Shown here in pieces: positions 1-36,884 of a stretch of 64,000 bases of DNA (its first letter is position 1; each line of letters starts with the position of its first letter). The notes below the pieces were generated by a model, which saw nothing but the letters and a program-made list of their open reading frames with translations, searched no databases and was not told where the DNA came from. Made by a program: the position numbers and the translations under genes. Source of the DNA: Terriglobia bacterium (lineage in GTDB: Bacteria > Acidobacteriota > Terriglobia > JAJPHL01); assembly GCA_021325275.1 (NCBI GenBank), contig JAJPHL010000051.1, positions 1 to 64,000 on the forward strand, read 5' to 3'.

Positions 1-2
1 CC

Positions 3-80
3 AAAGGTGCCTATTTCAATCATCACATCCGCGAGCACTTCCCCACCCATCACATCACGCGCTCTTCAACAGGGCTTTAG
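3..80 (+). CDS. Possible C-terminal end of an upstream gene (partial)
   Basis: An open frame enters the window at base 3 and stops at TAG 78-80. It encodes about 25 residues rich in His, Thr and Ser. I do not recognise the family, and the frame is too short to prove coding. It lies on the same strand as the cobalamin-salvage genes that follow, so it could be the end of the preceding operon member. A short hairpin (108-124) follows it. Confidence 0.3.
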   Translation, partial: KGAYFNHHIREHFPTHHITRSSTGL

Positions 81-107
81 TCCAGTCCGAAATGTCCAAA
101 CTCCAGG

Positions 108-124
108 TGGCGGCGAAGCCGCCA
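108..124 (+). terminator. Short GC-rich hairpin after the upstream frame
   Basis: TGGCGGC (108-114) and GCCGCCA (118-124) form a perfect 7-bp stem with a 3-nt GAA loop. No T-run follows, so an intrinsic terminator is possible but weak. It lies between the incoming frame and the membrane-protein gene. Confidence 0.3.
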
Positions 125-199
125 GAAATTCAAACTGAGAAACCGCCCTTTCGCGAAACGAATCTTCCTCATAGCCATTTCGATGTTATCATTCGATGC

Positions 200-784
200 A
201 TGAACCAGTTCACGGCAAAGAAGTCCTTCCTATCGGAAACCGGGCCGATCCTTTATTACTACGTGCTCGCGGCTGCCATCCTGCGCATTCTGCCGCATCC
301 GTGGAACATGGCTCCGGTCGGCGCGATGTTCCTCTTCAGCGCCGCGACGTTCCGCAGCCGTTGGGCCGGATGGATCGTGCCGCTGGTGGCGTTGATGGCC
401 TCGGACTACGCCGTGATCCAGATTCTGTATCACGGCAAATTCCCGTGGTTCAGTCCCGCGACCTGGGCGTCGTTCTCGCTGGTGGGGTTGCTCGGATGGA
501 CGATGCGCTCGAAGATCACTGTGACGCGCGTCGCCGGCGCGGCCATCGGCGGGTCGATTGTGTTTTTCATCGCCAGCAACTTTGCGGTGTGGATGGGCGG
601 ACAATTCTATCCCCTGACGTTCTCCGGATTGCTGGCGTGCTACACGGCGGCGATTCCGTTTTTCGGCAACGACGTCGCCGGCAATCTGGTTTACAGCGGC
701 GTGATGTTCGGATCGTATCGATACCTGGTGGCTCGCGGCGTGATCGCGCGGCGCGACGCGCGCCCGGTCGCCGTACGAGCGTAA
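200..784 (+). CDS. DUF6580-like integral membrane protein, possible cobalamin-uptake S component
   Basis: About 194 residues from ATG 200, a start followed quickly by the first hydrophobic segment; a longer frame from ATG 92 adds 36 residues of non-membrane character. Several hydrophobic segments alternate with short polar loops, including a PHPWN stretch and aromatic loops typical of small ECF-transporter substrate-binding (S) proteins. I assign it tentatively to the DUF6580 group. It lies 24 bp ahead of a BtuF-like cobalamin-binding protein and a DUF71 ATPase, so a role in corrinoid entry is a context inference. No catalytic motif is visible. No cobalamin riboswitch could be recognised upstream. 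Confidence 0.6.
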   Translation: MNQFTAKKSFLSETGPILYYYVLAAAILRILPHPWNMAPVGAMFLFSAATFRSRWAGWIVPLVALMASDYAVIQILYHGKFPWFSPATWASFSLVGLLGWTMRSKITVTRVAGAAIGGSIVFFIASNFAVWMGGQFYPLTFSGLLACYTAAIPFFGNDVAGNLVYSGVMFGSYRYLVARGVIARRDARPVAVRA

Positions 785-808
785 CAAATCCAACAAGGAA
801 ACAGCCGC

Positions 809-1729
809 GTGCGCATCTGCTCCCTGCTGCCCAGCGCCACGGAAATTGCGTTCGCGCTGGGACTCGGTAACTCCGTCGTGGCGGTGACGCACGAGTGCGA
901 TTATCCCGCGGCCGCCAATTCTCTTCCCCGCATCACGCGCACGCCGATCCGTTGCGACATGGATAGCCGCGCGATCGACGACGCCGTGATGGACGCGGCG
1001 GCGCGGAGCGAATCGCTGTATCAAATCGACATGGAGTTGATGCGAAGTTTGGCGCCCGATCTGATCCTGACGCAGCAACTTTGCGAAGTGTGCGCGGTGT
1101 CGGAAGGCGAAGTGCGGCGGGCGTTGGCGGGGTTGCCGAATCAGCCGCGCATCGTGAATCTCGAGCCGCGATCGCTCGAGGGCATCTTGGAAAACATCAC
1201 CCAGATCGGCGACGAAACCGGAACGCGCGCGAAAGCCGTTGAGGTTGTCACGGCGTTACGCGGGCGAATCGAGCAGGTGCGCGCACGCGCTGCGGCGCTT
1301 CCGCGCCCGCGCGTCTTTTGCATGGAATGGGCCGATCCCATTTTTTGCGGCGGCCACTGGATGCAGGAACTGGTGGAACTCGCCGGCGGCCGCGACGATT
1401 TGAGTCTGCGGCATCGTCCCTCCGTTCGAATCCCTTGGCAGAACGTAGTGGATTTTGCGCCCGAGGTGCTCGTGCTCACTTGCTGCGGCTTCGATGTGGA
1501 ACGCATGAAGCGCGAGGTCGATGTGCTGGCGCGCAATCCGCGTTTCCACGATCTCCCCGCCGTGCGCGCCGGACGCGTTTACGTGACCAATGCCATGGCC
1601 TACTTCAGCCGTCCGGGTCCGCGAATCGTCGACAGTCTCGAGATTCTCGCGCACCTCATTCACCCGGACGTTTTCCCCGATCCCGGGTATCTAAACGCGT
1701 TCGCGCAGGTCGCGACTGTTCTCGCATGA
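809..1729 (+). CDS. BtuF-like cobalamin-binding protein (periplasmic-binding fold)
   Basis: 306 residues from GTG 809, preceded by an AAGGAA ribosome-binding site about 8 nt upstream. The N-terminus begins directly with the family signature (SLLPSATEI, then THECDYP), and no signal peptide is visible. This matches the bacterial group annotated as cobalamin-binding protein, a relative of the BtuF/FhuD class III binding fold. A second lobe (residues about 165-300) contains MEWADPIFCGGHW and ends with the YFSRPGPR segment common in this group. The stop overlaps the next start (ATGA at 1726-1729), which points to translational coupling with the DUF71 ATPase. The lack of an export signal suggests a cytoplasmic salvage role, or a start further upstream that I cannot find. 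Confidence 0.8.
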   Translation: MRICSLLPSATEIAFALGLGNSVVAVTHECDYPAAANSLPRITRTPIRCDMDSRAIDDAVMDAAARSESLYQIDMELMRSLAPDLILTQQLCEVCAVSEGEVRRALAGLPNQPRIVNLEPRSLEGILENITQIGDETGTRAKAVEVVTALRGRIEQVRARAAALPRPRVFCMEWADPIFCGGHWMQELVELAGGRDDLSLRHRPSVRIPWQNVVDFAPEVLVLTCCGFDVERMKREVDVLARNPRFHDLPAVRAGRVYVTNAMAYFSRPGPRIVDSLEILAHLIHPDVFPDPGYLNAFAQVATVLA

Positions 1730-2847
1730 CGAAAACCTACGCGCTTTTCTGGAGCGGCGGCAAAGACTCGCTGCTGGCGCTCGACCGCGCGCAGCGCGCC
1801 GGTCTCAACGTTACGCATCTGGTCAACGTTTATGAGGGCAATTCCGGCCGGGTGCGATTTCACGGCGTGCGCCGCGCGTTGATTCAAGCGCAGGCCGATG
1901 AGCTGGGTATGAAGTTGGTCCAAGCGCACACGCATCCCGAAAACTTCGAAGGCGCTCTGGCGCGTGCGTTCTCCGCGCTGAAGGAATCGGGCATCGGTGG
2001 AGTGGTCTTTGGCAACATCCATCTCGCCGACATCCGAGCGTGGTACGAAGAGCGCACCGCCGCCGCGGGATTCGAACATGTCGAACCGCTTTGGGGCGAC
2101 CCGCCGTCGACGCTGGTGCGTGAGTTTGTCGATCGCGGCCATCGCTCGACGATCGTTAGCGTAAATCTCGGCTGCGGACAACGCGAGTGGCTGGGCCGCG
2201 AGTTCGACGCTGGGCTAATCCGCGATATCGAATCAACGGAAGCAGATCCGTGCGGCGAGCGCGGCGAGTATCACAGCTTTTCGCATGGCGGTCCGCTGTT
2301 TCGCGCGCCGTTAGCAATGGACGTCGAGGGAAAATTGGAAATTGAGAATCACTTGATTCTCGATTTTGGATTGAATGGGAAATTACACGAAGCGCTGGCA
2401 GAAAAAATCAGGGAGCAAGTGGAACGTGCGGAGCATCTGCTTTCGCTGGTGCCGGCGGAAAAGCTGGCGTGGAAACCGGCCTGGGGGTCACCCGCCTTTA
2501 CGATCGCCGAGCTACGCGATCACCTGCACGGCACACTCTCCGGATTTCTGGCCGTACTCTGCAAGGCGTATCCGGATCGCATGAACAGCTCGGGCCTCCG
2601 CGACGCCCCACTTTCGCTGCGCGAAATGTGGACGCACATCGAAGCCGGGATGCGCCACATCTCGGATCAAGATCTGGCACGCCCCATTCCCACCGTCTTT
2701 GTGCCGCGGGGCGAAACGGTTTTGACGCTGCTGCTGGGAAACCTGGAACACTTCATCAACCACAAACATCAACTCTTCGACTACCTGAAAGCACTCGGAA
2801 TCTCCGTGGCCACCGAAGATCTTTACCGCTTGCGTGGTAAAGACTAG
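1726..2847 (+). CDS. DUF71/COG2102 ATP-pyrophosphatase fused to a C-terminal DinB-like domain
   Basis: 373 residues from ATG 1726, which overlaps the previous stop. Residues about 1-215 form an N-type ATP pyrophosphatase: the PP-loop FWSGGKDSLLAL lies near the start, followed by the DUF71 core with GNIHLADIRAWYEE and EPLWGD. Eukaryotic relatives amidate diphthine; bacterial members next to BtuF-type genes have been predicted to act in B12 salvage (comparative genomics of COG2102). Residues about 225-373 resemble a DinB/YfiT-like four-helix bundle: a helical start (HEALAEKIREQVERAEHLL), the ELRDHLHGTLSGFL segment and the histidine-rich HFINHKHQLFDYL near the end. The fusion joins a predicted amidoligase to a metal-binding bundle. 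The exact chemistry is unknown. Confidence 0.8.
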   Translation: MTKTYALFWSGGKDSLLALDRAQRAGLNVTHLVNVYEGNSGRVRFHGVRRALIQAQADELGMKLVQAHTHPENFEGALARAFSALKESGIGGVVFGNIHLADIRAWYEERTAAAGFEHVEPLWGDPPSTLVREFVDRGHRSTIVSVNLGCGQREWLGREFDAGLIRDIESTEADPCGERGEYHSFSHGGPLFRAPLAMDVEGKLEIENHLILDFGLNGKLHEALAEKIREQVERAEHLLSLVPAEKLAWKPAWGSPAFTIAELRDHLHGTLSGFLAVLCKAYPDRMNSSGLRDAPLSLREMWTHIEAGMRHISDQDLARPIPTVFVPRGETVLTLLLGNLEHFINHKHQLFDYLKALGISVATEDLYRLRGKD

Positions 2848-3124
2848 TGAGTGGCGCGCTCAGCCTTACACAAACGCGATAAGAACAGCGCGGCGCATAC
2901 AGCGCCGTAAGCCACGCGGCCGACCTGGGGCAACATGGCGGGAGGCTGTTCTCCGCGATGCCGCTCGTTTAAGGTTCCGCTGTTCATGTCTTACTAGACG
3001 TAATGACGGGGGAATTGTTAGCTACGATTACGCGGCGCGTGTGAAAAGTTGTTGTAGGACAGGCATCCTTGCCTGTCCCTTTCGAAATTCGACGTTTCAA
3101 AGCCTCTTAAGCCGCCCGCGACCG
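2848..3124. other. Gene-poor gap with one palindrome
   Basis: 277 bp between the B12 cluster (+) and the PadR gene (-). The only structure seen is the palindrome at 3057-3078. No convincing coding frame is present. Confidence 0.6.
3057..3078. repeat. Small palindromic repeat (GGACAGGC type)
   Basis: GGACAGGCATCCTTGCCTGTCC type palindrome: GGACAGGC and GCCTGTCC arms around a 6-nt loop. Two sister copies lie at 17860-17911 after rpsT, so this is a dispersed element. It sits between converging genes and could act as a bidirectional terminator. Confidence 0.7.
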
Positions 3125-3463
3125 TCACAAGAACTTCGCGACCACTCCCGAGATTCGCGTCCAGTTCTGAGCCTCTTCGGTGAGTTGCTTCTTCCCTGCT
3201 TTGGTGATGCGGTAAAAGCGCGCCTTCCGGTTGTTCTCCGAGACGCCCCAATCGGAGTCGATCCAGCCCATTTGTTCGAGTTTCAACAGCGCCGGGTAGA
3301 GCGTTCCTTGATTCAACGCCAGCGCGTCGCCGGACGTTTGCTCAATTCGCCGCGCGATTCCCCAGCCATGCTGCGGACCCAAGCCGTCAAGCGTGCGCAG
3401 AATCATCAGCGCGAGCGTTCCGTGCAAAACGTCGGACTTGCTCGGGGGTTTGCTATTCTTCAC
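3125..3463 (-). CDS. PadR-family transcriptional regulator
   Basis: 112 residues from GTG 3463. This is the classic short PadR winged helix: HGTLALMILRTL near the start, GWGIARRIEQ, then NQGTLYPALLKLEQMGWI as the recognition helix and wing, and YRITKAGKKQL. PadR proteins bind DNA as dimers and often respond to small molecules. The gene overlaps the 3' end of the ADOP permease by 11 bp and is downstream of it, the reverse of the more usual padR-first order. It probably controls the shared promoter near 6110-6138, which carries two dyads. Confidence 0.9.
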   Translation of the reverse strand: MKNSKPPSKSDVLHGTLALMILRTLDGLGPQHGWGIARRIEQTSGDALALNQGTLYPALLKLEQMGWIDSDWGVSENNRKARFYRITKAGKKQLTEEAQNWTRISGVVAKFL

Positions 3464-18834: not shown

Positions 18835-21800
18835 CTACCGCGGCTTTTCCAACGTTTCGATCAGGAAGTGGATCTCGGCGGCCATCGTGTAGTCCAAGTC
18901 CGGGGCGTCGGCGAGAGTGTGGTCGCGGTGACCGGCGACAATGGATTGGAGGGCGCGAATGAAGGGGAGGAGCTGAGCGGCGCGGGGAACAGAGGCGAGT
19001 TGCTGGAGGAGGGACGCGGCTTCGGCCGTGTCGCCGGCGAGTAGGGATTGGGTCACGTCGAGGGCGAGGCGGCCATCGCCGCTGTGGTTCTCGCCACCGT
19101 CGCGGCGGTAGGCGAGGTAGCAGGTGATGGCCTTGCCCTTCGCCTCCGCGGCGGCGGTGGGGTTGCCAGCCTCCGTCTCAATCTTGGCGAGGATGGCCCA
19201 CGTCTTCCAGGGCTGGGAAGCATGGCCGAACTGCATATCGCATTCGATCGCGCGGCGGATTTCCTGCCGCGCTTCGTCAAAGCGCCGGAGCTTGCGGAGA
19301 CGAAGGGCGAGGTTGTACCTTCTGGTGCCCTCCTTGGCCACGTCGCGACATTCGAGAGACTTGTCAACGGCTTGGCGGAGGAACGCCACCGCTTCCTCAG
19401 TTCGCCCGAGATCGTCGTCATATAAAATCCCGAGTTGATTCAGGGTACTCGCCTGCGCGGCGACGTCTCCAAGCCGTACCTTGATCGCGAGAGATTTGCG
19501 GTAGGCATCCTCCGCCGCTTCTGGCTGGCCCGCGTCTTGATACACCCTACCGGTCTGATGCCAAACCACGGCGACGCTGCCCGGCTCGTCCAACTGCGTG
19601 AACCACTCGCGCGCTTCGGCATAAGCGGCCAGAGCGTCCGTATAGCGCCGTTGCCACATACGAACGGTCCCAAGCTGGCCCTTGCCCACTGCGACACTCC
19701 GGCCATCACTGAGTTGCTCGCCGCGGCGGACGCTCTCTTCGTAGGCCGCAGCAGCTTCATCGAGTCGGCCCAGAGCCAGAAGACAATCACCTTTTCTGCC
19801 GAAGCAGACAGTCACCATCTGTACGGCGGCTCTGTCAGCGCCGTCCTTCGCCACGACCTCGAAGCGCTGTCGAGCCTCGTTCAGCAACGGCAACGCCTGT
19901 TCCGACCGGCCCGCCGACTGCAACACTTGGCCAAGGAGATTGAATGCCATCGCCAGATCGTAAGCGGCCCCGCGATACGCCTGCCCGTCCGTCGTCCGAG
20001 CCCGCTGGAGCAACTGCTGCGCGCCCTCGAGCGCCTCGTGCAACTGCCCTTTTTGAAGCTGCTGCTCGATGCGGTTAGCCGCCGCGTTGAAGCGTGCGTG
20101 ACTCCAAGCGTTGCCCAGCGCCGCAGCCGCAATGTCGCGCACGTGCCCCACGCGCTCCAGCAGCCGCGGCCTGCCGAGCATTGACAACAGAGTGTAGAGC
20201 GACGTGGCCAGACCGATTGTCGCCTCGGCATCGCCCGCGCGCTGCACGAGGTCGAGCAGCGCAAAGAGGTTCGTCAGCTCCAGCACGGTCAGTGTCGCCG
20301 CGAGTTCGATGTGCTCGCTCTGTTGCTGCTCGAGGAACACGACATACGCGCGCATCTCCTCGACCCAGCGAACCATGAGCCGCTCGCGCTCCGCGGCGTC
20401 CATCCGCCCGCGCAGGTAAGGACAGAGTGCAGGATTGAGCGTGAGATGGCCGTAACGATTTGACGTCGCCAGCCCCGTCGCGATCAACTCTTCCGCCAGC
20501 GCGCCGATGTCCGCCTCTTCCCACTCCATCATCATGCCGAGCACGACCAAATTGACCCCGCCGTGAAATACACCGAGCACGCCCGCCCGCTCGCGGTTCG
20601 CGCCCGACATCCGCTGGAGGGAAAGCTCGACGCTAGCGAAGAGGGAATGCTCGCGACTACCGGGGAACTGCTGTTCCATCGCGGCCATCAGATCGACGAG
20701 CGCTTCGCGGGTAGACTCGACGCCCCGGCTCCGCAATTCCGGGGCCAGCAACGCGAGGGTGCGGGCGTGGCAATGGACGGCATCCACGAGCAACTCGATG
20801 GATTCGCGCGCCGCATCTAGCGTGGCACCCGCCCCGGCACCGCCCGCCACATTCAGCGCGCGCTCGACGAGCTTTACGGCGTCTTCGGTGTCGAGCCGGT
20901 GCAGTTCGCGCCGGTGGTGGAGCACGTCGAAGGGCGCGGGCAGCGCCTCTCGGCTGGTGAAGACGAGTCGCGTATCGCCCGCCTTCAACAGGCGTTCGGA
21001 CAGGTCGAGGATTGCTTTCAACTCGCGGCCCGCTTCCTCGGACAGCGCCTCGGGCGTTTCGAGATAAGGTGGCAGGAGGATGCTTTCCATGTTGTCCACT
21101 ACTAGCAGCGAGGATTGCTCGTGTAACGCACGCTCGACCTTCTGGATCGCACCTTCAAGATCGCCGGCCGCTGAAAACTCTCCGCTGACCAACTGCCTTC
21201 CAATCTCATCCACGACCGCGCGCTGATTGCCGTGCGTCTCGACCGAGACGAATGCGGCGCGGCGGACCTGCTGCGACCGCACCATCCAGCGCGCGAACTC
21301 GGCGGCGAGCGCCGTCTTGCCTTCGCCGCCCTGTCCACGCAGGACGGCGTACGATTCGTGCCGCAGCAGGCGTTGGAGCGCCAGCAATTCCCGGCTGCGC
21401 CCAATGAAACCGGTCGCTGGAGCCTTCGGCAGGCTCCCGAGGCGTGACGCCAGAATTGTCCGCAGCACCTCTTGCGTCTGCGGCGCGTGCGTGCGGCGGA
21501 AGAGTTGCGGGTCGTCCTTTTCCTGGAAAAGCACGGGTACAAACCAGTCTTCCAGGTGCAATTCGCCTGCCCCGAAAATGCGCCCACGAAAAGTTTCTTC
21601 CTTCAAAAAGCGTTGGCCGTCGAGCATGGCATCGCCCACGCGCTTGCCGTGGGCGAGTCCTCCGTAGAACTTCTCCACAAACCGGCGCGCGGTCTCGACC
21701 AGCACGCTGTGGCTCATGGCCACGACGGAGGCGACGCCGCTTTGCAACAGCTCGGAAGCGACGGACTCGGAAGTGTCTTCGGCCTGGGCAGTTTGGCAAG

Positions 21801-23205
21801 CTTCGAGGAAAACGAGTGGAATCCGGTAGTGCTTTAGGAGCTGACCGAGTTTGTCGGTATGCACCGTCACGTGTCGGCGCTTCTCGAGCTTATCGGTGTC
21901 CTGCGGATCTTCGAAGCAAAGTCCACCGAGGCCGACGTGGCGATCATAAACGCCGTGGCCGTCGAAGTGGACAACGTGATAGGGCTCACGGGCATCGAAG
22001 GCGCGTTTGAGTTCCTTGCTCAAGGCCTCAAACGTGGGAGGACTGAGCACGTGAAGCCGCACGAGGCCTCCGAGTTCTTCCATGGCTTCGACCAGCGGCA
22101 GTGCGCTGGCGCGGTGGTCGATGTAACCACACGCCTCATCCTCAGGTCGCGCGGTAACGAGCAGGACGCGGATCGGCGCTGCGACAACGGAAACGTCGAG
22201 TCTCAGGGTATTCGGCAGGCGCCGGCGGACGCGGGTGGGTTTCGCACCTTGAAAGAGAAAATCATGGCCATCGTGCAGCAATTCCCATGGCAGGCCGAGC
22301 AGGAGTGTGGCGGCCTCGCGGACCACAGCCGCGTCGGCGTCCGGGGTTCCGACTTCCAGAGACGCATCCACGTAAACGGAGAAGCGACGCGACGCGTGTT
22401 CGCTGATCTTCGCCCACGCGTCGATAACATTTTCGCTGTGCGCAGCGGGAATCGCCTCGTCGTGCAGTTGCCGGCCCCACCTCACGAGATCCGCTTCGAC
22501 CTTGCCCGCGCGGTCGCGGAAGTAGTGGCTCGGCCAAATGGCGTAGTGTTCCAGATACCAACTCAGCTCTGCGGCCTCGATGGGACCACTGGGAGCAATG
22601 AGCCGCCAACTTTGCGGGCTGAAGACTTTCGGCTGACCAGGATTCGACGGTTCATAGACGAGCCGGGCTCGGGCCGACGGGCGACGCACTCCGTTTTCTT
22701 CGTGGAACTTCAAATCCGTGAGTTCCAGGACGAGTTCCTCCAGCGGCTCGGCGGTTGGCTGTGTCGTCGCGGACTCTTCCGATGGGTGCCGTTTCCCCAT
22801 CGCTACGAGGATTGGATGCATCGCTGCCTCGGCACCGCCGGGTGCGCTGCTGACAGCAAGGTAAATCGGCTTGTCGTCGAACAACACTCCAAGGGCGCCG
22901 AGCTTCGTGCCGTCGAGCGAAAGCGCAAAGACGGGAAACTGGTCCCGGCCGCGCCGATCCTGTACGTCGAGCGCGTGGCGCACTTCCTTAACGACCCACT
23001 CCGACTGGAGCGAATTCGGGCTGACCACAACCGCAAAGGCCGAAGAGTCTTCGATGGCTTTCTTGATTTCCCGCGAAAGCGGATCGCCAGGTCGCAACTC
23101 GCGCGAATCGATCCACGCCTCCAGCTTAAGGCCGGCGAGTGTCAAGCGGAGTTCGCCGACGAACGCGTCGTCCTTCGAACTGTGGGAGATGAAGAGTCTC
23201 TGCAT
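18835..23205 (-). CDS. TIR-CHAT-STAND ATPase-TPR multidomain protein, probable NLR-like immune sensor
   Basis: 1456 residues. Residues 1-80 form a TIR domain (LFISHSSKDD start; candidate catalytic Glu74 in SEWVVKE). A beta-rich linker (about 150-330) precedes a CHAT caspase-like protease domain with His417 (FDGHG) and Cys470 (LEACQTA). A STAND/NB-ARC NTPase starts near 598 (GFIGRSREL), with Walker A GQGGEGKT (624-631), Walker B LLVVDN (700-705) and sensor VFTSRE. From about 1030 to 1400, TPR-like helical repeats would sense ligand. TIR domains cleave NAD+, and CHAT domains are proteases in known anti-phage systems. Having both effectors on one NTPase-TPR scaffold is notable. Cytoplasmic. No partner genes adjoin; the neighbours downstream on its 5' side are decayed. 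Confidence 0.85.
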   Translation of the reverse strand: MQRLFISHSSKDDAFVGELRLTLAGLKLEAWIDSRELRPGDPLSREIKKAIEDSSAFAVVVSPNSLQSEWVVKEVRHALDVQDRRGRDQFPVFALSLDGTKLGALGVLFDDKPIYLAVSSAPGGAEAAMHPILVAMGKRHPSEESATTQPTAEPLEELVLELTDLKFHEENGVRRPSARARLVYEPSNPGQPKVFSPQSWRLIAPSGPIEAAELSWYLEHYAIWPSHYFRDRAGKVEADLVRWGRQLHDEAIPAAHSENVIDAWAKISEHASRRFSVYVDASLEVGTPDADAAVVREAATLLLGLPWELLHDGHDFLFQGAKPTRVRRRLPNTLRLDVSVVAAPIRVLLVTARPEDEACGYIDHRASALPLVEAMEELGGLVRLHVLSPPTFEALSKELKRAFDAREPYHVVHFDGHGVYDRHVGLGGLCFEDPQDTDKLEKRRHVTVHTDKLGQLLKHYRIPLVFLEACQTAQAEDTSESVASELLQSGVASVVAMSHSVLVETARRFVEKFYGGLAHGKRVGDAMLDGQRFLKEETFRGRIFGAGELHLEDWFVPVLFQEKDDPQLFRRTHAPQTQEVLRTILASRLGSLPKAPATGFIGRSRELLALQRLLRHESYAVLRGQGGEGKTALAAEFARWMVRSQQVRRAAFVSVETHGNQRAVVDEIGRQLVSGEFSAAGDLEGAIQKVERALHEQSSLLVVDNMESILLPPYLETPEALSEEAGRELKAILDLSERLLKAGDTRLVFTSREALPAPFDVLHHRRELHRLDTEDAVKLVERALNVAGGAGAGATLDAARESIELLVDAVHCHARTLALLAPELRSRGVESTREALVDLMAAMEQQFPGSREHSLFASVELSLQRMSGANRERAGVLGVFHGGVNLVVLGMMMEWEEADIGALAEELIATGLATSNRYGHLTLNPALCPYLRGRMDAAERERLMVRWVEEMRAYVVFLEQQQSEHIELAATLTVLELTNLFALLDLVQRAGDAEATIGLATSLYTLLSMLGRPRLLERVGHVRDIAAAALGNAWSHARFNAAANRIEQQLQKGQLHEALEGAQQLLQRARTTDGQAYRGAAYDLAMAFNLLGQVLQSAGRSEQALPLLNEARQRFEVVAKDGADRAAVQMVTVCFGRKGDCLLALGRLDEAAAAYEESVRRGEQLSDGRSVAVGKGQLGTVRMWQRRYTDALAAYAEAREWFTQLDEPGSVAVVWHQTGRVYQDAGQPEAAEDAYRKSLAIKVRLGDVAAQASTLNQLGILYDDDLGRTEEAVAFLRQAVDKSLECRDVAKEGTRRYNLALRLRKLRRFDEARQEIRRAIECDMQFGHASQPWKTWAILAKIETEAGNPTAAAEAKGKAITCYLAYRRDGGENHSGDGRLALDVTQSLLAGDTAEAASLLQQLASVPRAAQLLPFIRALQSIVAGHRDHTLADAPDLDYTMAAEIHFLIETLEKPR

Positions 23206-35353: not shown

Positions 35354-35490
35354 TGAATCATCAAGAGTGGCTGAGGGAACAGGCCCGACGAAGCCACGGC
35401 AACCGCCTCTCGCTGGAATCGTAACGCGATCCTTGAGAGGGTCCAGGTGCCAATTCCTGCCCCGGGTTTTCCGCCGGGGAAAGATGACGG
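35354..35490 (+). promoter_or_regulatory. SAM-I (S-box) riboswitch
   Basis: The sequence carries the SAM-I core: ATCAAGAGTGGCTGAGGGAA at the 5' side, GGCCCGACGAAGCCACGGCAACC in the middle, AGGTGCCAATTCCTGCC and the closing GATGAC (35484-35489), which can pair with the 5' GTCATC-like strand to form P1. The P3/P4 region contains an extended stem with the CCCCGG and CCGGGG arms. It controls the threonine-synthase-like gene 110 bp downstream. Which platform (terminator or translation) is used is not clear; a stem CGGAGT/ACTCCG (35558-35590 region) ends at the AGGAG ribosome-binding site and could sequester it. Confidence 0.85.
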
Positions 35491-35600
35491 GGCCGATGGC
35501 TTCCACGCCGTCGTCCTTCCTTCTACTTTCCCCAAATTCAAACGGAATCCGGTTTCTCGGAGTTAGCCGCCGGCATGCGGGATACTCCGTAGGAGAGATG

Positions 35601-36884
35601 ATGAGCAGTTATTTGCTTGGACTGGAATGTCGCGGCTGCGGCCGCGTCCTGCCCGCTGAACCCACTTCTATTTGCGACGAATGCTACTCGCCCGTCGAGC
35701 CCTGCTACGACTACAACGCGCTGCGCGGCAAGCTGACCCGCGAGGTTCTGCAAAGCCGTCCGCGCGACATGTGGCGCTACGCCGAGTTGTTGCCGTTGCG
35801 CCGCGAGCCGCAAGCGCGACTCCCGGTGGGCGGCACGCCGTTGATCGAAGCGCGCAACTTGGGACGCGCGCTGGGCCATCGCGCGTTGTACATCAAGAAC
35901 GATTCGATGAATTACCCCACGCTGTCGTTCAAGGATCGCGTGGTATCGGTGGCGCTGAACGCGGCGCTGGAGTTTGGATACGACACGCTGGCGTGCTCGT
36001 CCACCGGAAACCTGGCCAACGCCGTGGCCGCGCAAGCGGCGCGCGCGGGAATCAAAGCGGTGGTTTTCGTGCCGGCCGATATCGAAGACGCGAAACTGAC
36101 GGCGTCGCGCATTTACGGCGCCACCGTCATCCGCGTGCAAGGAAACTACGACGCTGTGAATCGCCTCTGCACGCAAATCTCGCAGGAGCGCCGCTGGGCG
36201 TTTGTGAACGTGAATTTCCGTCCGTTCTACGCCGAGGGATCGAAGACGGTCGGTTACGAAATCGCCGAACAGCTTGGATGGAAGCTGCCAGGCGCGGTGG
36301 TCGTACCGATGGCCGGCGGATCGCTCATCGGACGCATTCGCAAATCGTTTTCGGAGCTTGCTTACTTGGGAATCGTGGAGGACGACGCTCGTGAAGTGCG
36401 GATTTGCGGAGCGCAAGCTTCGGGATGCGCGCCCATCGCGCGCGCCGTGGAGACGGGACGCGCGGAGATCACGCCGGAGCGCCCGGACACGATCGCGCGT
36501 TCGCTGGTGATCGGCAATCCCGCGGACGGTCCGTTTGCCGCGCGCGCGATTCGCGAGTCGGGCGGCAGCGCCGCGCACGCCACGGACGAAGAATTGATCG
36601 AAGGCATTCGCTTGCTCGCATCCACCGAGGGGATTTTCGCGGAAACCGCCGGCGGCGTGACTGTCGCGGCGTTCCAAAAACTGATGGCGCAAGGCGCGAT
36701 CGATCCGGATCAACCGGCGGTGCTGGTGATCACAGGCAACGGACTGAAGACGGCCGAAGCGGTCGCCAACGTCGGCGGCGAAGTCTTCTTGATTCCTCCC
36801 AAACTGCGCGAGTTCGATCGCGTGTACGCGGGCAGCGCGAGTCAGGCCGCGCAAGAACAAGCGGCGCAGGAATTGGTGGCATAA
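35601..36884 (+). CDS. thrC: Threonine-synthase-like PLP enzyme under SAM-riboswitch control
   Basis: 427 residues from ATG 35601 (5 nt after AGGAG; ATG 35598 is too close). The N-terminus has a zinc-ribbon-like set of Cys (LECRGCGRVLPAEPTSICDECYSP), found in many threonine synthases. The PLP lysine is in TLSFKDR, and the phosphate loop is SSTGNLANAV, followed by AGGSLIGRI and the C-terminal VITGNGLKT. Known role: O-phosphohomoserine to threonine. The SAM riboswitch and the sulfur-carrier gene 8 bp downstream suggest, by inference, a methionine or homocysteine branch instead of simple threonine synthesis. Confidence 0.85.
   Translation: MSSYLLGLECRGCGRVLPAEPTSICDECYSPVEPCYDYNALRGKLTREVLQSRPRDMWRYAELLPLRREPQARLPVGGTPLIEARNLGRALGHRALYIKNDSMNYPTLSFKDRVVSVALNAALEFGYDTLACSSTGNLANAVAAQAARAGIKAVVFVPADIEDAKLTASRIYGATVIRVQGNYDAVNRLCTQISQERRWAFVNVNFRPFYAEGSKTVGYEIAEQLGWKLPGAVVVPMAGGSLIGRIRKSFSELAYLGIVEDDAREVRICGAQASGCAPIARAVETGRAEITPERPDTIARSLVIGNPADGPFAARAIRESGGSAAHATDEELIEGIRLLASTEGIFAETAGGVTVAAFQKLMAQGAIDPDQPAVLVITGNGLKTAEAVANVGGEVFLIPPKLREFDRVYAGSASQAAQEQAAQELVA

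Follow-up and report, generated by a model that had tools for sequence, protein, structure and literature searches.

Positions 1 to 64,000 of contig JAJPHL010000051.1 of a Terriglobia bacterium (assembly GCA_021325275.1, phylum Acidobacteriota), a stretch of 64,000 nucleotides (nt) that is here called the window, carry near their beginning a three-gene operon that is very likely cobamide-related. The genes encode a DUF6580 membrane protein, a BtuF-like protein that lacks a signal peptide, and a fusion of a DUF71 ATPase domain with a DinB-like helical bundle. The fuller reading, an operon for uptake and handling of cobamides in an acidobacterium unable to close the nucleotide loop, seems to us about evenly balanced. 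It draws on the genomic surroundings of the same gene families in related bacteria, and on the host assembly (G000; 6.86 Mb, 97.6% complete), where no match to CbiB (PF03186), CobS or CbiZ was found.

Gene layout

The window is the first part of the contig (C16). The features of the operon are the following.

200 to 784, + strand: DUF6580 (PF20221) membrane protein, start uncertain; Pfam 165.7 bits
809 to 1729, + strand: signal-less BtuF-like protein (Peripla_BP_2); Pfam 82.6 bits
1726 to 2847, + strand: DUF71-DinB fusion, 373 amino acids (aa); Diphthami_syn_2 114.5 bits and DinB_2 18.8 bits
1726 to 2352, + strand: DUF71 / PF01902 PP-loop ATPase domain, residues 1-209, with SGGKDS and GERGEYH; strongly divergent
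2374 to 2844, + strand: DinB-superfamily four-helix domain, residues 217-373, with a conserved three-His predicted metal site
1726 to 1729, + strand: ATGA in which the BtuF-like stop and the fusion start overlap, read from the sequence

Coordinates and Pfam matches bear out the three close-set genes of the preliminary description, with 24 nt between the DUF6580 and BtuF-like genes and the ATGA overlap between the latter and the fusion. The start of the first gene is ambiguous: the contig begins at window base 1, which leaves 199 nt 5' of the start at 200, the frame is open to the contig end and an earlier ATG is found at 92.

The link to cobamides in relatives

Gene context and riboswitches in some of the relatives support the connection to B12, which is real but indirect. 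A cobalamin riboswitch was found in 8 of the 20 fetched stretches (L096, L097, L098, L100, L101, L103, L107 and L113). In one of these (L096, genome G099) the riboswitch precedes a DUF6580 - BtuF-like - DUF71 run, which is the order of the window, by about 140 nt, counted to the DUF6580 match; ahead of a DUF6580 - BtuF-like pair in G010 and G040 the corresponding distance is about 110 nt. Other arrangements are richer. Locus L107 has, in order, riboswitch, TonB receptor, cobalamin adenosyltransferase, DUF6580 and BtuF-like genes; L113 has a binding protein, FecCD, ABC ATPase, riboswitch, TonB receptor, DUF71 and DUF6580. With the window included, DUF6580 genes lie within 600 bp of a BtuF-like gene in 23/68 cases, of DUF71 in 12/68 and of either in 35/68. 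At least 19/68 have a riboswitch within 4 kb, the riboswitch counts being lower bounds taken from contigs of interest.

Distribution of CbiB, CobS and CbiZ

Does the operon serve B12 salvage? The preliminary description proposed so, and named co-occurrence with cobS/cbiB-type genes as a check. Presence was compared over 146 genomes for DUF71 and 151 for the other families, from genome lists transcribed by hand from tables; the genomes are related to one another, for which a family-stratified test is a partial correction. CbiB is found in 32, CobS in 38 and CbiZ in 8 of the 151. CbiB or CobS is present in 4/67 genomes with DUF71 (a number that includes G090, with a fragment only) versus 37/79 without it (Fisher p 1.3e-8; family-stratified odds ratio 0.08, p 2.7e-5), a strong anti-association of DUF71 with these two families. 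The four exceptions are G037, G041, G076 and G081; counted the other way, DUF71 occurs in 4/31 CbiB genomes among the 146.

The published reading of DUF71 comes from a 2012 comparative study (PMC3541065), which proposes that DUF71-B12 proteins fulfil the role of CbiZ in bacteria. Applied here, the fusion would cleave pseudo-B12 and so supply CbiB with cobyric acid, DinB being an accessory. According to that study, 75/102 bacterial-type DUF71 genes adjoin B12 transporter genes and 18/102 adjoin cbiB, DUF71-B12 is strictly anti-correlated with CbiZ in bacteria, and nearly every CbiB genome of the set has CbiZ or DUF71-B12. DUF71 and CbiZ rarely coincide in our genomes too (CbiZ in 1/67 with DUF71 versus 7/79 without, p 0.07), but the relation of DUF71 to CbiB is the opposite of the one that the paper gives for its own genome set, and CbiB is present in 8/8 CbiZ genomes. 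A reviewer of the paper questioned whether a PP-loop protein could be an amidohydrolase, to which the authors answered that one family can hold both ligases and hydrolases. Replacement of CbiZ by the fusion looks improbable, as the host shows neither a CbiB nor a CobS match. CbiZ-like cobinamide salvage is disfavoured on two grounds, the host's lack of all three families and the avoidance of CbiB and CobS by DUF71. Of the earlier proposal, the B12 link therefore stands, whereas salvage that stands in for CbiZ and feeds CbiB is contradicted in the host assembly and in its class. Further remodelling would need CbiB or CobS, for neither of which the host has a match; a reaction that acts on complete cobamides and does not feed CbiB is therefore favoured and in our judgement fairly likely.

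The titles and abstract openings of the literature searched yielded no experimental work on DUF71-B12 proteins; two papers (PMC8305020, PMC5481537), in their available portions, only cite the 2012 study.

A BtuF-like protein without a signal peptide

The second gene was called BtuF-like in the preliminary description, but in the window it does not encode a periplasmic binding protein. An in-frame TAA (782-784) ends 24 nt before the GTG start at 809, and the conserved core begins immediately. There is no room for a signal peptide and hence the protein is not periplasmic; judged from its reading frame, it is probably cytosolic. Among 36 close homologues, 16 have no in-frame start codon before the core and 11 have one 2-24 residues before it; in the other 9 the start is 36 or more residues before the core, and an extension may be present there. 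Periplasmic-type homologues differ: in 6/7 a start precedes the core by at least 37 residues. The remaining one is a host protein (L146, 7568-8779, - strand), another binding-protein domain that is fused to GAF and apparently also without a signal peptide.

Conservation was assessed over sequences with at least 36% identity and at least 90% coverage. E29, C30, C92, C95 and C226 are invariant in 37/37 close sequences. C92, C95 and C226 are missing in 7/7 periplasmic-type homologues, whereas C30 is common to them. The window protein resembles BtuF (5ysc, 1n2z) in belonging to the Peripla_BP_2 family, and its profile matches Vibrio cholerae BtuF 5ysc with E 4.8e-24; it is unlike BtuF in having no signal peptide, in carrying C92, C95 and C226 and in scoring below the NCBIfam BtuF cut-off. 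In an alignment, the HEC stretch of the protein may lie near a corrin-contacting tyrosine of Escherichia coli BtuF. Together these features would fit a cytosolic corrinoid carrier, which is what we predict the protein to be.

Two further loci show the family in another setting. In G041 the BtuF-like gene is 132 nt from CbiB on the same strand (G041:C24:253039-254895), and in G076 (G076:C69) it is found in a stretch with CbiZ, CbiB and CobS. BtuF-like genes of this kind are thus found in cobamide-making clusters too.

DUF6580 as a candidate importer

In the 109 genomes without CbiB or CobS, DUF6580 and periplasmic-type BtuF are nearly complementary: 42 have DUF6580 only, 43 have BtuF only, 20 have both and 4 have neither (p 1.4e-10; family-stratified p 5.8e-5). 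Periplasmic-type BtuF stands here for all matches at E<=0.001 minus the cytosolic type, so that binding proteins of other kinds may be among them; for weak matches the count comes from the genome table only. The four genomes with neither are 75-89% complete. In families f3, f4 and f5 the two are mostly exclusive within the family as well, and in f10 DUF6580 is present in 20/20 non-producers, 4 of which also have BtuF. Because of this near-complementarity, DUF6580 is predicted to be an inner-membrane importer of intact cobamides, a role that we hold to be somewhat likely.

Is there a precedent for a lone importer of this size? BtuM is a single small membrane protein able to support B12 uptake, according to PMC6072759. 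The likeness to DUF6580 is one of role only, both being small membrane proteins and DUF6580 a candidate for stand-alone import; the DUF6580 profile had zero matches to solved structures at E up to 10. A simple hydropathy scan with a strict threshold gave two segments and settles nothing about topology. No paper naming DUF6580 turned up in the literature searched.

The DUF71 domain

Fusion residues 6-208 match Diphthami_syn_2 (PF01902) with 114.5 bits against a cut-off of 23.2. The domain shares with Dph6 diphthine-ammonia ligase (3rjz / PF0828) the PF01902 fold, the ATP-binding residues and the GExGE motif. It differs in having His at the position of Dph6 Glu188 (GERGEYH) and in its score against TIGR03679, 91.3 bits with a cut-off of 197.3. 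On these two points a Dph6 role was rejected. The same His, that of the ENGEF/YH motif of the DUF71-B12 subgroup, is present in 49/49 DUF71 sequences, that of the window included. It is not exclusive to B12 loci: Priestia and Acinetobacter homologues have it, and the 2 kb and 1.5 kb inspected around them have no B12 gene annotated.

Members of the DUF71-B12 subgroup of COG2102/PF01902 share with the window protein the PP-loop core, the His for Glu188, a BtuF-like neighbour gene and, when a tree is rooted on two Dph6 proteins, a place on its bacterial side (subgroup of PMC3541065). Unlike them, the window protein is fused to DinB and strongly divergent, and CbiB and CobS are missing from the host and from most genomes of its class that have DUF71. 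As to adjacency to B12 transport genes, the BtuF-like neighbour in the window is signal-less and the connection to B12 is made by way of relatives. When six plasmid homologues and the two Dph6 outgroups are included in the tree, the fused DUF71 falls on the bacterial side, on a long branch and outside its 48 relatives (47 of the class plus L181); the clade of these 48 with Persicobacter has support 0.85. Long-branch effects may have influenced this placement.

The DinB domain and its free-standing relatives

The preliminary description recognized a DinB-like bundle joined to DUF71, and profile and predicted model agree. DinB_2 matches fusion residues 230-349 with 18.8 bits, below the cut-off of 24.8. 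A profile of 14 DinB sequences (the window and 13 relatives) matches the solved DinB structures 3dka and 3gor at E of about 1e-6. An AlphaFold2 model of the domain, from a three-sequence alignment, has a predicted local distance difference test score (pLDDT) of 84 and finds 3gor as its best match (E 1.9e-4, probability 1.00, template modelling scores 0.65/0.69), the other top matches being DinB/YfiT folds. With profile and model in accord, the assignment is secure despite the Pfam score. H54, H130 and H134 are invariant in 14/14 sequences. The domain has the four-helix bundle and three-His site of the DinB/YfiT proteins (3gor, 3dka, 6iz2; mycothiol S-transferase 8f5v; BstA 5wk0), but it represents a separate orthologue family, with about 11-22% identity to the solved folds, and stands C-terminal to DUF71.

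The fusion is rare. A whole-fusion search of 151 genomes gave one match across both halves, the window's own. A search with the DinB half in 399 genomes of the class and 396 of the phylum, two sets that overlap, found no other match at E<1e-10 in an open frame of more than 266 residues. No match covering 80% of the query was seen in 23 plasmid records with matches, and no second fusion in two further loci. An assembly artefact was considered as the source of the fusion and the sequence gives no sign of one, the domain boundary being clean and third-position GC similar in the two halves (0.70 and 0.68).

Free-standing orthologues offer a second view of the association. The set comprises 14 loci, the window excluded: 13 genomes with matches at E<1e-20 (G008, G012, G042, G308, G313, G334, G337, G340, G364, G406, G459, G629 and G699) plus L032. 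Weaker matches, at E>1e-20, were kept out; those inspected (L155-L161, L184, L185) have none of the three partner genes. In 4/14 loci the orthologue adjoins a DUF71, BtuF-like or DUF6580 gene. DinB - DUF6580 is found in G012 (L094) and in G364 (L151, same record as L033), DinB faces DUF71 - BtuF-like in G340 (L152), and BtuF-like - DinB faces DUF71 in G459 (L181). The first three genomes are of one genus, and G459 belongs to another class. DUF71 gave no match in G012, and DinB can therefore adjoin DUF6580 without DUF71. These neighbours lend some support to the suggested tie between DinB and the DUF71/B12 genes; the amidoligase-type and metal-dependent chemistry that was attached to it stays conjectural.

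Other genes recur around the orthologues. A CbiX - FAD/NAD reductase - DinB - DUF6580 array is present in L094 (7889-9723, by Pfam) and L151 (by eye), both of one genus. Genes of 5-oxoprolinase type are near DinB in 3/14 loci (L153 3770-4483 and L154 4949-5638, by eye; L181 4194-5804, PxpBC-type by Pfam), and an MBL-rhodanese gene is near it in L032 (8497-9885, by Pfam) and L180 (5712-7121, by eye).

The fold neighbours suggest another function, processing of the beta ligand by an analogue of CblC/CblD. Here DinB would be a metal-dependent thiol transferase that strips imported cobalamin of its upper ligand, the BtuF-like protein a cobalt-thiolate partner, and DUF71 the provider of an ATP-driven step. 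Mycothiol and bacillithiol transferases do appear, lower, among the fold matches of the DinB model; the invariant His triad and the four invariant cysteines of the BtuF-like protein would suit such a reaction, and L094 has a flavin reductase gene next to DinB. BtuM is known to carry out Cys-ligated decyanation (PMC6072759). However, nothing here points to a thiol-transferase substrate, the DinB family is also found beside unrelated genes, and C30 is shared by 7/7 periplasmic-type homologues. We regard this function as unlikely.

Proposed mechanism

How might the three proteins work together? In the uptake and handling operon that we propose, DUF6580 would carry intact cobamides across the inner membrane, and the signal-less four-cysteine BtuF-like protein would receive the corrinoid and carry it in the cytosol. 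The DUF71-DinB protein would then act on the carried, complete cobamide. PP-loop enzymes use ATP to activate a carbonyl or carboxylate oxygen. The PP-loop domain may do this to a side-chain oxygen of the corrinoid, most plausibly in order to restore a hydrolysed amide, and the three-His DinB bundle may perform a metal- or thiol-dependent second step or dock the complex. Amide-forming chemistry, with restoration on corrin side chains, is our preferred specific guess, though a doubtful one.

Evidence that weighs against the proposal

A number of observations weigh against this mechanism, or against parts of it. Several concern the cobamide link itself. A search for RNA families found no match within window 1-3200, and so no riboswitch ahead of the operon in the 199 nt that the contig has before the start at 200, and the single cobalamin riboswitch match of the host precedes a TonB receptor on another contig (C19). 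No cobalamin riboswitch was found at the seven loci with the closest BtuF-like proteins (53-61%; L095, L102, L104, L105, L106, L109, L110), or in the DinB-orthologue loci L032, L033, L094, L099, L112, L149-L154 and L180-L183; we are less certain of the cobamide link because of these two results. Just 19/66 DUF71 genes have a BtuF-like or DUF6580 gene at a distance of 1.5 kb or less (66 places, without the G090 and G048 fragments).

Others concern the two upstream proteins. The BtuF-like family profile also matches heme- and iron-binding proteins, and the protein is below every NCBIfam cut-off (BtuF equivalog, 48.4 bits versus 234); its ligand is accordingly deduced from context. The gene is not confined to non-producers, as 16/58 genomes that have it also have CbiB/CobS. 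Part of the complementarity of DUF6580 and BtuF is between families: in f6, 27/27 non-producers have BtuF and 10 of these also have DUF6580. The structure model of DUF6580 is too poor (pLDDT 48) to bear on a six-helix S-component fold of the ECF or BtuM kind. The host has a BtuF - FecCD-like - ABC set on C36 (the FecCD-like gene recognized by eye), and DUF6580 is therefore not its only candidate importer.

The remainder concern the fusion. Within their stretches seen, 10/14 DinB orthologues have none of the three partner genes, G008 and G042 being at contig ends. The fusion might be incidental, a lineage-specific join in which DinB is a dimerisation or stability module and DUF71 does its usual B12 job, a reading compatible with the other readings of DUF71. 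Its occurrence once among the 399 and 396 genomes would agree with this. The adjacency in 4/14 loci, with three gene orders and two classes, does not, although three of the four are of one genus; neither does the retention of the His triad in the fused copy. An incidental join is rather unlikely, if less so than beta-ligand processing.

The fused DUF71 may also have left its ancestral function. Of 61 columns in which the other members are at least 93% conserved, it differs at 23, against a maximum of 4 for any other member, and its terminal branch is 1.9, against at most 0.43. Could it have ceased to act on corrinoids, the operon link being inherited from an ancestor? The PP-loop, His46, GExGEYH and other core residues are kept, and the gene overlaps translationally with a normal BtuF-like gene. 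With distant homologues added, the excess in branch length is smaller (1.25, versus 0.64-0.81 for four plasmid homologues and 0.20-0.31 for two). We consider such a loss as improbable as the replacement of CbiZ.

Other features of the window

The next gene after the fusion encodes a PadR regulator and is convergent (3125-3463, - strand). A SAM (S-adenosylmethionine) riboswitch of 78 bits, at 35355-35490, overlaps the start of the frame 35367-36884, in which a PALP-family domain begins further in; it is probably the leader of a pyridoxal phosphate-dependent amino-acid enzyme. A 1456-aa protein with TIR, CHAT, AAA and TPR domains (18835-23205, - strand) is, from its domains, a possible defence or cell-death protein.

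Significance

The fusion names DinB as a further partner for DUF71. In one bacterial class, the distribution of CbiB, CobS and CbiZ speaks against the 2012 proposal and favours processing of complete cobamides. DUF6580 becomes a candidate B12 importer for acidobacteria without periplasmic-type BtuF. More broadly, and more tentatively, DUF6580, the four-cysteine cytosolic BtuF-like protein and DUF71(-DinB) might constitute an undescribed route by which mainly non-producers import and process intact cobamides, either as a bacterial counterpart of the CblC/CblD step of animals or in corrinoid amide repair, with DUF6580 replacing BtuCDF.

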